A stretch of 27,679 nt of DNA from positions 1 to 27,679 of the IMG/VR virus record IMGVR_UViG_3300045933_000285; one strand, given 5' to 3'. Under the pieces are notes generated by a model, which saw only the letters and a list, made by a program, of their open reading frames with translations, searched no databases and was not told the DNA's origin. Of this stretch, positions 14,896 through 24,987 are shown in pieces. Each line of letters starts with the position of its first letter. Position 1 is the first letter of the stretch. A program made the translations under genes and the position numbers. Source of the DNA: a virus.

Positions 14896-15632
14896 TTACG
14901 ACGGGCGGGCGCTCGTCGTCTCGACGAACGGCAGGCCGTAGTGCTCCGAGAATGCCTTCAACATGTGGCGGTGCAGCGCGCGGCGTTCGTCGCGCGTGCG
15001 CGGCGCGGGTCGCTCGAGACGGCGCGCGTCAGGATCGGGCGCGAGCAGGCGGTCGAGCGGCGGCAGTTTGCTGTTCTGGCCGGAGAGCGCTGCGATATGC
15101 CACGCCAGCGACATGCGTTGGTTGTGCTCCATGCGGCGCCGCTGTGCGGCGATCGCGAGCTCGCGAAACAGGCCGCGAATCGTCAGGCGCCAGAATTCGT
15201 CCTGGCTCAGGCCGGCGTGGCGTGCATGGATTTGAAGGGTCCGCCAATCCCACGCTTCCGCTTCGCCTTCACCTGAGCCGTCGGAGGGTTTGCCGCGTTG
15301 ATCTCCTTGACGTCCGCCGGATCGGGCTGCGCCGTCTTCGCCAGCGCTTGCAGCTGATTGTTCAGACCGACGAGCCCGACCTCGTCGATCAGCCGGGTCA
15401 CGTCGCGCTTCGTCATCTCGGCGTGATGCTCCCGCAGGCACGCCCAGATGAAGGCGACGACGTAGCGCGTGCTGCCGGTGTTGACCTTCTGCATCAGCGC
15501 CTGCGCGGTGTACTCCCGATCGGGCGTCGAGAACACTTCTTCGAGCTCGCACATCGCGTTGGTGTTGAGCACCATCGTGTAGGTGCGATCGCCGACGATG
15601 ATGTCGAATTCGCCCTTCTCTCGATTTGCCAT
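14896..15632 (-). CDS. Tail assembly chaperone fusion (GT-type) made by -1 frameshift
   Basis: Predicted 245-residue product: residues 1-116 come from the 15632 frame, and 129 residues come from the -1 frame down to TAA 14896. The shifted part begins SDGSGEGEAEAWDW and includes QDEFWRLTIRGLFREL and AWHIAAL...LPPLDRLL, a pattern typical of the second tail-chaperone partner. That part has no plausible start of its own before WDWRTL, which supports frameshifting. Such G/GT pairs bind the tape measure and recruit tube subunits before assembly, and the fused form is a minor product. Location directly before the tape measure is the classic one. The frameshift efficiency is unknown. Confidence 0.75.
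15207..15632 (-). CDS. Tail assembly chaperone (G-type, GTA-gp10-like)
   Basis: One hundred and forty-one residues from ATG 15632, with GGAAG about ten bases upstream. The N-terminus ANREKGEFDIIVGDRTYTMVL...AMCELEE resembles the gp10 family of gene transfer agents and related phage tail chaperones. A middle helical region (LIDEVGLVGLNNQLQAL) is followed by a flexible basic tail (KAKRKRGIGG) translated only when ribosomes do not shift. Its stop TGA 15207-15209 lies inside the -1 frame of the fusion. The upstream neighbour is a lipoprotein gene and, beyond it, the tail tube. Confidence 0.85.
   Translation of the reverse strand: MANREKGEFDIIVGDRTYTMVLNTNAMCELEEVFSTPDREYTAQALMQKVNTGSTRYVVAFIWACLREHHAEMTKRDVTRLIDEVGLVGLNNQLQALAKTAQPDPADVKEINAANPPTAQVKAKRKRGIGGPFKSMHATPA
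15285..15291 (-). promoter_or_regulatory. Candidate -1 programmed frameshift site (A AAC CCT)
   Basis: On the minus strand positions 15291 to 15285 read AAACCCT. In the zero frame this is A|AAC|CCT, codons 115 and 116, which fits the X XXY YYZ rule. After a one-base slip the next codons are TCC GAC GGC TCA, leading straight into the second chaperone frame. Confidence 0.7.
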
Positions 15633-15851: not shown

Positions 15852-16343
15852 CTACGGCAGGTCGGCGGTGTAGTCCTGCAGCGGCTGCACTTCCGCCTCG
15901 TACTTCACCAGTTCTTCGAGCCCGAGCGAGCCGAGCTTGAGCTTGCTGATCACGCCGCGGAACGGCACTTCGGTGCCCGGCGAGCCGTCGGGCAGCACGA
16001 ATTTCATGTCGCGCTCCTCGAGCGATCGATGGATGGCGATCAAGCCGCCGCTGGTGAAGCCATCACCGCCCGCGTTGTTGATCGAGCCGTGCTTCAGGTT
16101 CAGGGTGCCGGTCATCCGGAAGGGGCCGATGTCGCGGATCGTGGCGATCTTCTCGTGCGCCCGGCCAGGGCTGCGGAGGTGCGTCTTGTTGATCACGCCC
16201 GCCGTCATCTCGCCGAATTCGATCGTGTCGACCTGCGCCACACTCACGAACACCGGCGGACTGCCGCCCTGCGAGATCATCCACTGCGCCCCGTAGCCGA
16301 TGAAGCCTTCGGAGGGGTAGTAGGTGTCGGTCACGTTGCTCAT
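15852..16343 (-). CDS. Major tail tube protein (internal start)
   Basis: One hundred and sixty-three residues from the internal ATG 16343, the length of a typical siphovirus tube protein. The start MSNVTDTYYPSEG looks like a natural N-terminus, and the preceding AAGGAG is the best ribosome binding site in this part of the operon. This short form is the likely bulk subunit that polymerises around the tape measure; the long form would be minor. It could instead be the sole product if the upstream lectin frame is a separate gene that has lost its stop. Confidence 0.7.
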   Translation of the reverse strand: MSNVTDTYYPSEGFIGYGAQWMISQGGSPPVFVSVAQVDTIEFGEMTAGVINKTHLRSPGRAHEKIATIRDIGPFRMTGTLNLKHGSINNAGGDGFTSGGLIAIHRSLEERDMKFVLPDGSPGTEVPFRGVISKLKLGSLGLEELVKYEAEVQPLQDYTADLP

Positions 16344-16847
16344 GCTGTCTCCTTCGTACTGAGTGGCCCGCCAGTTGTCGCCCGCGCAATCCGTGCTGAT
16401 CCAGAAGCCCGCCGCGCCGGTCGCGTAGACGGCATCGGTAATCTCCGCGACATGCACGACGACGCCGTCGATCGTCGCGGTATAGGTGGTGCCCTGCACC
16501 GTGAGGCGCCCGACGCTGCCGCTGGCGTGCCACGTCGGCAGGCCGGAGGCGACGACCGTCGGCGCCCCCGCGAGATATTTCCGGATCACGCCGCCCGTCG
16601 AGAAGACGACGCCCGTGGTGCCATCGCCGCTCATGCGGACGGCCGGTCCGAGATGCCCGGTGCCGCCGACGAATTCCAGCTCGGCGCCCTGCGTCGGCTC
16701 GAAGGGACCGCTGTGGAACGCGAAGCCCGCGCCGCCGGTCAGATGGCTCACGACCTGCTGCGCGACGATGCGTGGGCGCTGCGCCGCCGGTGCGGTCCAC
16801 GCCGCGCCGAGGTCGCCGTCGGGTCGATTGAAGGTGTCGACGATCAT
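15852..16847 (-). CDS. Lectin-like domain fused in frame to the major tail tube protein
   Basis: Three hundred and thirty-one residues from ATG 16847, three bases after the tail terminator stop. Residues 1-168 resemble a concanavalin/LamG-like jelly roll (DTFNRPDGDLGAAWT at the start; AGFWISTDCAGDNWRATQYEGD at the end). Residues 169-331 are the tail tube protein (MSNVTDTYYPSEGFIGYG, FGEMTAGVINKTHLRSPG, FRMTGTLNLKHG, VPFRGVISKLKLGSLG). There is no stop between them, but a strong ribosome binding site and ATG occur exactly at the domain border, so both a long and a short product are likely. In other phages tube decoration domains are usually C-terminal or made by frameshift; an N-terminal lectin with internal restart is unusual. 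Confidence 0.75.
   Translation of the reverse strand: MIVDTFNRPDGDLGAAWTAPAAQRPRIVAQQVVSHLTGGAGFAFHSGPFEPTQGAELEFVGGTGHLGPAVRMSGDGTTGVVFSTGGVIRKYLAGAPTVVASGLPTWHASGSVGRLTVQGTTYTATIDGVVVHVAEITDAVYATGAAGFWISTDCAGDNWRATQYEGDSMSNVTDTYYPSEGFIGYGAQWMISQGGSPPVFVSVAQVDTIEFGEMTAGVINKTHLRSPGRAHEKIATIRDIGPFRMTGTLNLKHGSINNAGGDGFTSGGLIAIHRSLEERDMKFVLPDGSPGTEVPFRGVISKLKLGSLGLEELVKYEAEVQPLQDYTADLP
16349..16354 (-). promoter_or_regulatory. Strong internal ribosome binding site for tail tube
   Basis: The minus strand reads AAGGAG, five bases before ATG 16343, within the lectin/tube frame (codons for YEGDS). It supports independent initiation of the tube protein. Confidence 0.7.
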
Positions 16848-16850
16848 CGG

Positions 16851-17261
16851 CTAGACCTCGCGGAACCACGCGAAGTAATCGCGCAGCACCTTGTATTGCC
16901 GCAGTTCTTCGGCGTCGTAGGCGGGACGGCGATCGACCGGATCGATCAAGTCGATCAGCAGCGTGCCGACGAGCCCGCGGAAACAGCGCAGGCCCGTGCT
17001 GACGCCGTCGCCATGCACGGCGGCGTCGAGCTCGACGGCGGCGGCGCCCTCCTTGCCAATCGAATCGACCTGCACGCGCGCGCGCCGCAAATTGCCAGGG
17101 CCGCGCAGATGGATCGGCTCGTGTTCGTCGATCGTCTGCACGCGCACGGCGGGCAGGGTGGGGCTCTGCGGCAGATGCAGCACGTAGACGCGCGCGGCCA
17201 CGAGCGCGGTCACCGGCGGCATCGACAGGAGCAGTTGCCGGATCGCGTTGTCGAGCGTCAC
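16851..17261 (-). CDS. Tail terminator / tail completion protein (DUF3168-like)
   Basis: One hundred and thirty-six residues from GTG 17261, whose GTGA overlaps the stop of the upstream gene. The start VTLDNAIRQLLLSMPPVTALVAARVY and the middle P.LPAVRVQTIDEHEPIHL..PGNLRRARVQVDSIG follow the pattern of small tail-terminator proteins that cap the tube at the head-proximal end. The C-terminus carries DVRRPAYDAEELRQYKVLRDYFAWFRE-like charged helices. Its place just before the tube gene is the standard one. The extra upstream frame (basic, arginine-rich) is shadow. Confidence 0.78.
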   Translation of the reverse strand: MTLDNAIRQLLLSMPPVTALVAARVYVLHLPQSPTLPAVRVQTIDEHEPIHLRGPGNLRRARVQVDSIGKEGAAAVELDAAVHGDGVSTGLRCFRGLVGTLLIDLIDPVDRRPAYDAEELRQYKVLRDYFAWFREV

Positions 17262-17698
17262 AGCCCCACGCCTCCGCCGCCGCTGCCGCGACTGCCGGCC
17301 AGGCCGCGCGCGGTCAGCGCCGCCCACAGTCGGCTCTGCACAATCAATAGGGCTTGCCGGGTCTTCTCGTCGAACGCCGGCCGCGCGAACGGCTTCGCGC
17401 CGTGACGCGAGGTGCCGAGCTCCTGCATCAGCCCATAGAAGACGTCGCGACTGGGGCCGACGGCGATCGCCACGGCGGCCGACTCGCCCTTCGGGCGCGC
17501 GTTGGCGATGTTCATGCTCTGCGCCAGGTTCGGCGCCTGCGGCGTGCCCCGTGGGGCGGCCGATGCCATGCGCGCGCGGATCGGCTCGGCCGCTTCGCGC
17601 AGCGCTTCGCGCAGCATCTTGGCGCCGACACGCGCCGACATCTGCGCGAGCGCCGCCGCGATCGCATCGCCGCCCTCGAAGCGCAGCCCGATCTTCAT
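17258..17698 (-). CDS. HK97 gp10-like tail component
   Basis: One hundred and forty-six residues from ATG 17698, overlapping the preceding stop as ATGA. The sequence MKIGLRFEGGDAIAAAL..M..RV..KMLREALREAAEPIRARMASAAPRG is characteristic of the HK97 gp10-like family, followed by the VGPSRDVFYGLMQELGTSRHGAKPFARPAFDEK block that marks it well. These proteins lie at the head-tail junction and act in tail completion. The glycine-rich tail (GSRGSGGGGVGL) is probably disordered. Confidence 0.88.
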   Translation of the reverse strand: MKIGLRFEGGDAIAAALAQMSARVGAKMLREALREAAEPIRARMASAAPRGTPQAPNLAQSMNIANARPKGESAAVAIAVGPSRDVFYGLMQELGTSRHGAKPFARPAFDEKTRQALLIVQSRLWAALTARGLAGSRGSGGGGVGL

Positions 17699-18770: not shown

Positions 18771-19059
18771 AGAGGCGATCCTTCACGCGATCGGTGAAGG
18801 GGCCGGGCACGTTGTCGTCGGCATCGCCGCGATGCCGCCAGATGTTCGCGAGCACTTCGAGAATCGCCGACTTGCAGACGGCGTAGGCGACATCGGCCGC
18901 CGGGTCAGTGTCGGCGGTCCAGTCCTCGTCGGCCTGATCTTGGATGTAGACGAGCACGATCGCATTCGCCTGTTCGAGCGTGTCGGTGATCTCGGCGTCG
19001 AAGTCGGGCACCGTGATGCGCAGATGGCGGCGCGCGTCGGCGAGACTGACGATCGCCAT
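18736..19059 (-). CDS. HK97 gp6-like head-tail adaptor
   Basis: One hundred and seven residues from ATG 19059, joined to the collagen-like gene by a TGATG overlap. MAIVSLADARRHLRITVPDFDAEITDTLEQANAIVLVYI is the helical start of the gp6-like connector family, followed by AVCKSAILEVLANIWRHRGD. The protein forms the ring that docks under the portal. The normal size and position agree. The extra upstream arginine-rich frame is shadow. Confidence 0.88.
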   Translation of the reverse strand: MAIVSLADARRHLRITVPDFDAEITDTLEQANAIVLVYIQDQADEDWTADTDPAADVAYAVCKSAILEVLANIWRHRGDADDNVPGPFTDRVKDRLYAAGLRVPSLA

Positions 19060-19787
19060 CAGTACCTCGCCGGTCCTTGCGGCCCCTGCGGGCCGGGCTC
19101 GCCGGGTTTGCCGGGGGCACCGGGCTTGCCCTCGCGGCCCGCTTTGACGGCGAGCCGCCACGCGGCGCTCGCGCCCGGTTGGCCGTCGGGCTTCGCGCTC
19201 GTGTCCTCTTGCGCAATCCAGAACGAGCCCGCCCAGGTGACGCCGTCGCCGCGTTCGTAGCTGCGCTCACTGATCCAGACGCCGCGATCGAGCACGGTCG
19301 GCAGGCGAATCACGCCGCCCTCGATCGGATCGCCGTTCTTGAAGCAGAAGGTCAGCGTGCGTTCGCCATCCCAGATCGCCTTAAGCTGCTCCAGGGTGCC
19401 GTCGCGGCCGGCGGCGCCAGGCAGGCCGTCGACGCCGTCGCGGCCTGGAGCGCCGTCCTTGCCGTGGAGCCCGTCGAGCCCGTCGCGCCCCTTCTCGCCC
19501 GTCGGACCGGCGATGCCGTCGCGCCCGGCGATGCCGTCGCGCCCGTCGAGGCCGTCGCGTCCCTTCTCGCCCGCCGGGCCGGCGACACCCGGCAAGCCGT
19601 CGCGCCCGGCGATCCCTTCGGGACCGGCAGGTCCAGGCGGGCCGGCCTCGCCGCGCGGGCCGACAGCCGGCGGGCGGTCTTCGAGCGCGCGCAGCCGATC
19701 GTCGACGGCGTGCAGCGCCGCGGCCACGAGCTCGCGCATCACCGGCGCCACGCTGCGTGCAATGACCGCCAGATCGCGGGCCGTCAT
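19059..19787 (-). CDS. Collagen-like neck or head fibre protein with CBM-like domain
   Basis: Two hundred and forty-two residues from ATG 19787, overlapping the portal stop as ATGA. Residues 1-40 are helical. Residues 43-129 are 29 uninterrupted Gly-X-Y triplets, with a 24-residue internal repeat (EKGRDGLDG at 73-82 and again at 97-106). Residues about 131-215 are a small domain with GVWISERSYERGDGVTWAGSFWIAQ, similar to CBM5/12-type chitin/sugar-binding modules. Residues 217-240 return to eight Gly-X-Y triplets. Collagen-like phage proteins form trimeric fibres; the place between portal and adaptor suggests a neck or head fibre. Sugar binding is inferred from resemblance only. Confidence 0.82.
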   Translation of the reverse strand: MTARDLAVIARSVAPVMRELVAAALHAVDDRLRALEDRPPAVGPRGEAGPPGPAGPEGIAGRDGLPGVAGPAGEKGRDGLDGRDGIAGRDGIAGPTGEKGRDGLDGLHGKDGAPGRDGVDGLPGAAGRDGTLEQLKAIWDGERTLTFCFKNGDPIEGGVIRLPTVLDRGVWISERSYERGDGVTWAGSFWIAQEDTSAKPDGQPGASAAWRLAVKAGREGKPGAPGKPGEPGPQGPQGPARY

Positions 19788-23699: not shown

Positions 23700-23813
23700 A
23701 TGCGCGATCGCTGGTTCCGGCTCGGCTATCTCGTGGGATGGGTCCTGTACTACCTGCTGCTCATCGCCTTCGGGTGGGCGATGTATCGGGTGACGACGTG
23801 GCTGATCACGTGA
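23700..23813 (+). CDS. 37-residue single-pass membrane peptide
   Basis: ATG 23700 opens a 37-residue frame that is too short for usual gene callers. After a basic start (MRDRWFRLG) there is one clear membrane span (YLVGWVLYYLLLIAFGWAMY, residues 10-29) and a short polar end. Its stop overlaps the glycosyltransferase GTG start as GTGA, suggesting coupling. No good ribosome binding site is visible. It could anchor the glycosyltransferase, flip a lipid carrier or be a holin-like peptide; only the membrane span is directly supported. Confidence 0.55.
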   Translation: MRDRWFRLGYLVGWVLYYLLLIAFGWAMYRVTTWLIT

Positions 23814-24496
23814 CGCTGCTGACGGCGACCGGCGCGCGGCCGGTCGCGTGGGGCTTGTGCGAACAGTTGATGACGGCGCAGGACTACACCGGCGCCGTGC
23901 GGTGGGTCGTCGTCGACGACGGCCCGACGCCGCAGCCGCTCGCCTTCGTGCGGGACCACTGGAGCCTCGACGTCATTCGCCCGCTGCCCGCGTGGCGCCC
24001 TGGACAGAACACGCAGGCGCGCAATCTCAGCGCGGGCTTGGCGGCGATCGCCGCCGACGAGCGCGTGGTCATCATCGAGGACGATGACTGGTACGCCCCC
24101 GACTGGCTGACGCACGTCGTCGCCCGACTCGACGGCGCGGAGCTCGTCGGCGAATCCTGCGCCCGTTACTATCACGTGCGCGCCGGTCGGCAGCGGCAAC
24201 TGCACAACGACCAACACGCCAGCCTGTGCGCCACAGCCCTGCAGGGGCGGGCGATTCACGCGCTGCGCGAGGTGTGCGCGGCGCGGCCGACCTATCTCGA
24301 CATCGAGCTCTGGCGCCGTCCGCTGCAGCGCCGCCTGTTCGACGGGCATCGCGTCGTCGGCATCAAGGGCTTGCCGGGGCGCCCCGGCATCGGCAACGGG
24401 CACGCACCGACCTTCGGCGAGCTCGACGGCGCCGGTCGGCCGGTCCTGAAGGACTGGGTCGGCGCCGCCTGGGCGAAGCGCTATCGCGAGGTGTGA
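23810..24496 (+). CDS. Phage GT-A family glycosyltransferase
   Basis: Two hundred and twenty-eight residues from GTG 23810 (a GTG at 23798 would add four). The start TLLTATGARPVAWGLCEQLM is the natural N-terminus of this phage family. VVVDDG (33-38) and EDDDWYAPDWL (90-100) are the nucleotide-sugar and metal-binding acidic motifs of a GT-A fold. Further on are YLDIELW (162-168) and GIKGLPGRPGIGNGHAPTF (184-202), blocks that recur in phage glycosyltransferases. It overlaps both neighbours and forms a unit with the methyltransferase, opposite to all structural genes. Likely role: adding a sugar to a virion protein, DNA or host envelope; the acceptor is unknown. Confidence 0.8.
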   Translation: MTLLTATGARPVAWGLCEQLMTAQDYTGAVRWVVVDDGPTPQPLAFVRDHWSLDVIRPLPAWRPGQNTQARNLSAGLAAIAADERVVIIEDDDWYAPDWLTHVVARLDGAELVGESCARYYHVRAGRQRQLHNDQHASLCATALQGRAIHALREVCAARPTYLDIELWRRPLQRRLFDGHRVVGIKGLPGRPGIGNGHAPTFGELDGAGRPVLKDWVGAAWAKRYREV

Positions 24497-24987
24497 TGCA
24501 CGGGGCTGCCTACGACTTCGTCGCCGCCTGCTGCCAGCGCTGGCGCCCGCAGAGCCCGATCTACGAAGTGGGCGCGCTCGACATCAACGGCAGCGTCCGC
24601 GGCCTGTTCGGCGGGCCGTATGTCGGCATCGACCTGCATCCGGGGCGCGGCGTCGACGTGGTCGGCGATGCGCGCGTCTACGTGCCGGCCTTTCAGCCGG
24701 CGACGATCGTCTGCTGCGAGGTCCTCGAGCACACGCCGCACGCCGCGGCGCTCCTCGCCCACCTGGGCACCGTCCTGGCGCCGGGCGGCGTACTGATTCT
24801 CACGGCGGCCGGGCCGCGCCGCGCGCCGCATTCCGGCCTCGACGGCGGGCCGCTGCGGGCCGGCGAGTACTACGGCAACGTCACGCCCAACGCCCTTGCC
24901 CGCTGGCTCGACGCCGCCGGCCTGACGCTGCTGCTCGTCGAGCTCGGCCCGCTGCAGGCCGACGTCTACGCCGTGGCGACGGCGTGA
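24496..24987 (+). CDS. Class I SAM-dependent methyltransferase
   Basis: One hundred and sixty-three residues from ATG 24496, overlapping the glycosyltransferase stop as TGATG. Motif I is reduced to IYEVGALDING (22-32); then come GIDLHPGRGVDVVGDA (44-59), CEVLEH (74-79) and LAPGGVLILT (94-103), giving a compact Methyltransf_11-type fold. It lacks an added substrate-recognition domain, as in small-molecule or sugar methyltransferases. Tight coupling with the glycosyltransferase suggests methylation of the transferred sugar. It ends 46 bases before the convergent ribbon-helix-helix gene. Confidence 0.85.
   Translation: MHGAAYDFVAACCQRWRPQSPIYEVGALDINGSVRGLFGGPYVGIDLHPGRGVDVVGDARVYVPAFQPATIVCCEVLEHTPHAAALLAHLGTVLAPGGVLILTAAGPRRAPHSGLDGGPLRAGEYYGNVTPNALARWLDAAGLTLLLVELGPLQADVYAVATA

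Follow-up and report, generated by a model that had tools for sequence, protein, structure and literature searches.

Can a single phage gene supply both a plain tail tube subunit and a second, lectin-bearing version of it? The question is raised by an open reading frame (ORF) in the window, by which we mean the whole 27.7-kb stretch of DNA analyzed (IMG/VR record IMGVR_UViG_3300045933_000285), a single metagenomic contig from an uncultured, siphophage-like virus. The ORF (16847-15852, minus strand) runs for 331 codons without an internal stop. The original prediction read it as a tube protein lying in frame behind a 168-residue lectin-like domain, with AAGGAG, five nucleotides and an ATG exactly at the boundary, and proposed that the gene makes two products. 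The anatomy is as described: 168 codons precede the internal ATG and 163 follow from it.

The ORF list and Pfam and PHROG profile searches place this frame in a siphophage head-tail module on the minus strand of the window. The module encodes a terminase, a fused S78 protease and major head protein, a portal, an adaptor, closure proteins, a tail completion protein, the lectin-tube ORF, a tail chaperone, a tape measure, and a long tip protein with LamG-type domains. The tube gene has the tail terminator/completion gene on one side and the tail chaperone followed by the tape measure on the other, which is the lambda gpV-type order. The tail-completion gene closes with a TAG (16853-16851), the lectin-tube ORF starts 3 nt beyond it, and the end of that upstream gene also contains the lectin start's GAGG. 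The features are as follows.

16851 to 17327, minus strand: upstream gene, tail completion/terminator protein (Tail_completion_gp17; PF11367, E = 4.5e-7; phrog_347, E = 0.0025)
16856 to 16859, minus strand: Shine-Dalgarno (SD) GAGG of the lectin start, 8 nt ahead of ATG 16847 (-6.6 kcal/mol; opening energy 10.9)
16344 to 16847, minus strand: lectin-like N-terminal module of 168 codons from ATG 16847 (ConA-type jelly-roll, DTFNRADG family; motif family, AF2 model, and structure match)
16349 to 16354, minus strand: internal SD AAGGAG, 5 nt ahead of ATG 16343 (-8.8 kcal/mol; opening energy 6.9)
15852 to 16343, minus strand: tail tube protein, lambda gpV-like, 163 codons plus stop, with its own ATG 16343 (weak profiles, structure match, and free homologues)
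15207 to 15632, minus strand: downstream gene, tail assembly chaperone (GTA-gp10-like; PF11836, E = 3.5e-8; phrog_2115, E = 2.7e-15)

The window has further features of note. An additional ORF in the -1 frame (15207-15276, minus strand; EAWDWRT...) overlaps that of the tail chaperone, with CGGAAGCGTGGGA common to the window and to the related contig L005; this is possibly a frameshift site of the lambda G/GT type. On the opposite strand, two ORFs (23738-24987, plus strand) lie between the genes for terminase and head protein; one resembles a glycosyltransferase by eye, the other a methyltransferase. Directly downstream of the portal gene is an ORF (19059-19784, minus strand) with collagen-like GxY repeats.

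Assignment of the second half relies mainly on fold. Profile matches to residues 169-331 were weak (PF16461, E = 0.0026 and 18.1 bits against a cut-off of 26.1; phrog_158, E = 1.5e-4), and a search for tube homologues in genome_contigs returned no match. The AF2 model has a pLDDT near 84-91 across most of the domain, and its nearest fold is that of lambda gpV, whose chains its residues 179-331 match with Z of 14.2-14.8 and an rmsd of 2.0-2.4 over 137-138 aligned residues. By modeled fold, residues 169-331 are a lambda gpV-like tail tube, in line with the tube protein of the original prediction. The two halves were modeled separately; the lectin half of the full-length model reached a pLDDT of only about 30-55.

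The first half opens with DTFNRPDG, a motif that heads the domains of one family, each about 170-195 residues long. Domains of this DTFNRADG type occur in phage fibers and in small structural genes. The window's module aligns over its full length with ten phage domains (17-28% identity) and has both the conserved N-terminal DTFNR-DG motif and the final D-N/W strand of the family. Searches against Pfam, PHROGs, and PDB sequences gave no meaningful match, the phage and plasmid collections gave no credible one, and viral_contigs gave none with the window sequence as sole query. The separate AF2 model (pLDDT 75, pTM 0.73) is a ConA-type jelly-roll. Its best solved match is the C-terminal domain of the mycobacteriophage Douge central fiber gp20 (residues 693-878; Z 17.6, rmsd 2.5, 162 residues), followed by the TM4 gp23 receptor-binding domain (Z 15.4) and CBM66 (Z 15.3); predicted phage minor tail proteins were common among its matches in a viral structure library. 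The label "lectin-like" is thus supported by the motif family and the modeled structure rather than by sequence profiles, and the fold suggests sugar binding. Family domains at protein C-termini (L011, L017, and L018) end within about 8 residues of the shared last strand, which implies that the window's module is complete. The tube begins almost directly after it, across a linker of roughly five residues.

Codon 169 is the ATG at 16343-16341, with AAGGAG (16354-16349) ahead of it and the 5 nt ACAGC in between, so a free form would have 163 residues. Two in-frame starts are present, each with an SD, and the internal one is the stronger: the predicted SD-antiSD duplex is -8.8 kcal/mol at ATG 16343 versus -6.6 at ATG 16847, computed with a canonical anti-SD that may not be the host's. 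Duplexes at the nine other gene starts of the window that could be scored range from +1.5 to -5.5 kcal/mol, some of these starts being uncertain, and the internal start has the strongest SD among all those scored. Of the 222 in-frame NTG codons internal to six genes of the window, only 1 has an SD as strong. The predicted cost of opening the mRNA is likewise lower at ATG 16343 (6.9 kcal/mol) than at ATG 16847 (10.9); the median for random positions is 12.0, and ATG 16343 falls near the 5th percentile. Together, these start strengths predict mainly free tube and some fusion. A search of the window found no dedicated promoter or terminator ahead of the tube. A frameshift upstream of the joint was considered and ruled out: third-codon-position GC is constant (0.83-0.97 in 90-nt steps) through lectin, joint, and tube, and the lectin's last strand is in frame.

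Relatives of the tube identify which of the two starts is older. IMG/VR contains 18 tube matches from about 12 distinct lineages (41-74% identity). Every relative examined has a free tube whose first residues are M-x-(D/N)VT (MNVT in L002), aligned exactly with ATG 16343, and all of these starts carry an SD (-6.4 to -12.1 kcal/mol). The tube thus has its ancestral start at ATG 16343, and this ATG with its rare SD coincides with the conserved first tube residue of all relatives. The lectin is absent from all 18 matches, and none of them is fused; 163-codon open frames upstream of the tube in L033 and L034 were rejected as fusions, since each overlaps, in a different frame, with the tail-completion gene. 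Most relatives have 12-66 nt between the tail-completion gene and the tube gene. In L002, L003, L005, and L046, the gap is about 180-206 nt, noncoding, and strongly structured. These other inserts indicate that the site accepts insertions, and the lack of the lectin in any relative indicates that it is a private insertion between the two genes. The original prediction had suggested looking for split versus fused genes. The lack of any fused form comes close to the outcome that it had named as counting against it, but a lectin followed by a stop was not found either. As the relatives have no lectin at all, they point to the private insertion and are uninformative about stop loss in the window.

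The inserts of the four relatives are of interest in themselves. They hold a conserved structured RNA of about 170 nt (L002:4816-4997, L003:4820-5003, L005:2245-2440, and L046:2795-3000) at the same gene boundary as the window's lectin. It consists of a stem around two hairpins (core CUAGG...CCGAA), then a long hairpin, with a T-rich run after it in some members. Three members were folded (z about -5.5), and across the four sequences 14 of 32 pairs covary (0 of 500 shuffles). Rfam gave no gathering-level match for L002 or L003, and below gathering only chance-level matches for L003. A covariance model matched strongly only the four relatives, with no strong match at the window's site. A further variation is found in the tube of L010 (4001-4735), which has about 75 extra residues as an internal stretch. 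Part of this stretch (query residues 150-200) matches segments of various Rhizobium and Klebsiella phage proteins, and the stretch is possibly another mode of decorating this tube.

The explanation that we propose takes the anatomy, folds, ancestral start, SD strengths, and predicted mRNA accessibility described above as its basis. A complete ConA-like module of the DTFNRADG family would have been inserted, without a stop, between the tail-completion and tail-tube genes and in frame with the tube. The ancestral tube ATG and its SD would have been retained and are now enclosed by the long ORF. Initiation at ATG 16343 would give the major product, the free 163-residue tube, and initiation at ATG 16847 a scarcer 331-residue lectin-tube protein; both the two products and their ratio are what we infer from the starts. 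By analogy with SPP1 gp17.1* and 936 TpeX, a minority of tagged subunits would enter the tail with the lectin on the outside. The exposed lectins could then make additional weak contacts with cell-surface sugars, as proposed for C-terminal extensions of other siphophages. The claim that one gene gives two products thus stands as a prediction: both starts have an SD, with the stronger and more accessible site at the internal one, consistent with a major free and a minor lectin form, but the relatives have only the free tube. We give the full explanation, from module insertion to tagged subunits in the tail, slightly less than an even chance. Against it, the fusion is seen in one contig only, no relative has the lectin, and a stop-less insertion would join the tube in frame with a chance of about 1 in 3. 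Because the module is new in this lineage, the SD may have been kept owing to recency and not to selection for two products.

Alternatively, these could be two ordinary neighboring genes, with the lectin a separate small virion- or fiber-associated protein whose stop disappeared through recent mutation or an assembly error, leaving the fusion as a by-product. A lost stop or base error is possible because one base change in the final pre-tube codons (e.g., TAC to a stop) would split the lectin from the tube. The lectin ends at the joint as free versions do (L017, L018, and L011 terminate just past the domain, and L011 and L021 have small genes made up mainly of it), the tube retains a full start site, and the evidence is a single metagenomic contig. 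However, the frame is open as sequenced, third-position GC remains high across the joint, and a split lectin and tube arrangement is absent from the relatives too. We regard this explanation as unlikely.

The lectin could instead be present on every tube subunit, all of them translated from ATG 16847, and the internal start would be an ancestral relic. One open frame with an SD at 16847 would permit this. Some siphophage tubes do have a domain on each subunit, such as the Ig domain of lambda gpV (PMC8718954), and L010 carries its extra stretch in every tube subunit. Yet the internal start is stronger and more open, so free tube should exceed fusion, N-terminal arms form ring contacts (PMC7385642), and the N terminus is free in all relatives; we consider this improbable. 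Somewhat less improbable, although still quite unlikely, is that both forms are made and only the free tube assembles, the long form remaining free or having a role confined to one site, for example the tube end nearest the head. The SD strengths and mRNA accessibility fit this too, and the N-terminal arm is directed to that end. A soluble long form could, however, poison tube growth and be selected against.

Whether tagged subunits could be built in at all depends on the N terminus of the tube. In lambda-type tubes, the beta2-beta3 loop is the main contact of the N-loop, which in contractile systems reaches the sheath (PMC8718954); this places it on the outer side. The lambda/YSD1-type N-terminal arm is part of ring and inter-ring contacts, and in YSD1 it points headward, contacts neighbors, and is needed for assembly (PMC8718954, PMC7385642). 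Given these contacts, only some subunits, or none, may tolerate an N-terminal tag. Tubes fail to assemble once the T5 N terminus or the YSD1 N-terminal arm is removed (PMC8718954, PMC7385642), an argument that the free tube form is likely needed. A 168-residue domain on a short linker may be excluded from the tube, since the arm is an assembly contact and is headward in YSD1. By comparison with these systems, an N-terminal tag is geometrically conceivable but risky and would fit a minor fraction, or none, being built in. That a lectin is carried N-terminally by a minor fraction of tube subunits, in a ratio set by two competing in-frame starts and not by frameshifting, is a claim that we make only as a rather doubtful possibility.

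Dual-start genes are established in phages, and lambda S and C/Nu3 are examples. In SPP1, genes 24.1 and 26 each have an in-frame internal AUG with a correctly placed ribosome-binding site that yields a shorter product (PMC6316719). These examples are lysis or head genes, whereas the window case is a tail tube.

Two-length tubes are also known. SPP1 makes gp17.1 and gp17.1* from one locus, the minor form at 3:1 (1 in 4 subunits), and the adhesin-type domain of gp17.1* is thought to touch cell-wall carbohydrate (PMC6316719, PMC8718954). The window would resemble SPP1 in having a two-length tube with a minor adhesin-type form. The SPP1 extension, however, is C-terminal, has an FN3/Ig fold, and arises by +1 frameshift, whereas the window's is N-terminal, ConA-like, and proposed to result from dual initiation. 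Lactococcal 936 phages place a carbohydrate-binding module on a fraction of tail-tube subunits as MTP-TpeX, and TpeX bound host cells (PMC6669499); that extension is C-terminal, frameshift-made, and a BppA-type CBM, unlike the N-terminal, same-frame extension of the window. A C-terminal programmed-frameshift extension of the SPP1/936 type is absent here. Lambda gpV shares the tube fold and also bears an extra outer domain, but that domain is C-terminal, Ig-like, and on every subunit. The jelly-roll fold of the window's lectin is that of the Douge gp20 C-terminal domain and TM4 gp23, which belong to baseplate or fiber proteins, whereas here the domain is joined to a tail tube. In a published view, chance decides whether an adhesive module lands in frame or out of frame, and its retention then depends on function (PMC5009743); the window arrangement, if it works as proposed, fits this view.

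The original prediction had also held that N-terminal decoration by internal initiation is undescribed. No internal initiation at tail-tube genes was found in the literature searched; as this covered few subscription journals, the negative result carries little weight. Decorated tubes of two lengths and dual-start genes are each known, but neither their combination nor an N-terminal position turned up in that literature.

If the proposed explanation is true, dual initiation would be a third genetic route for placing adhesins on a minority of tail subunits, beside in-frame fusion and frameshifting, and the N terminus would be a new protein end for such adhesins. The locus would also offer a direct test of whether a lambda-type tube tolerates an N-terminal domain, its N-terminal arm being an assembly contact.
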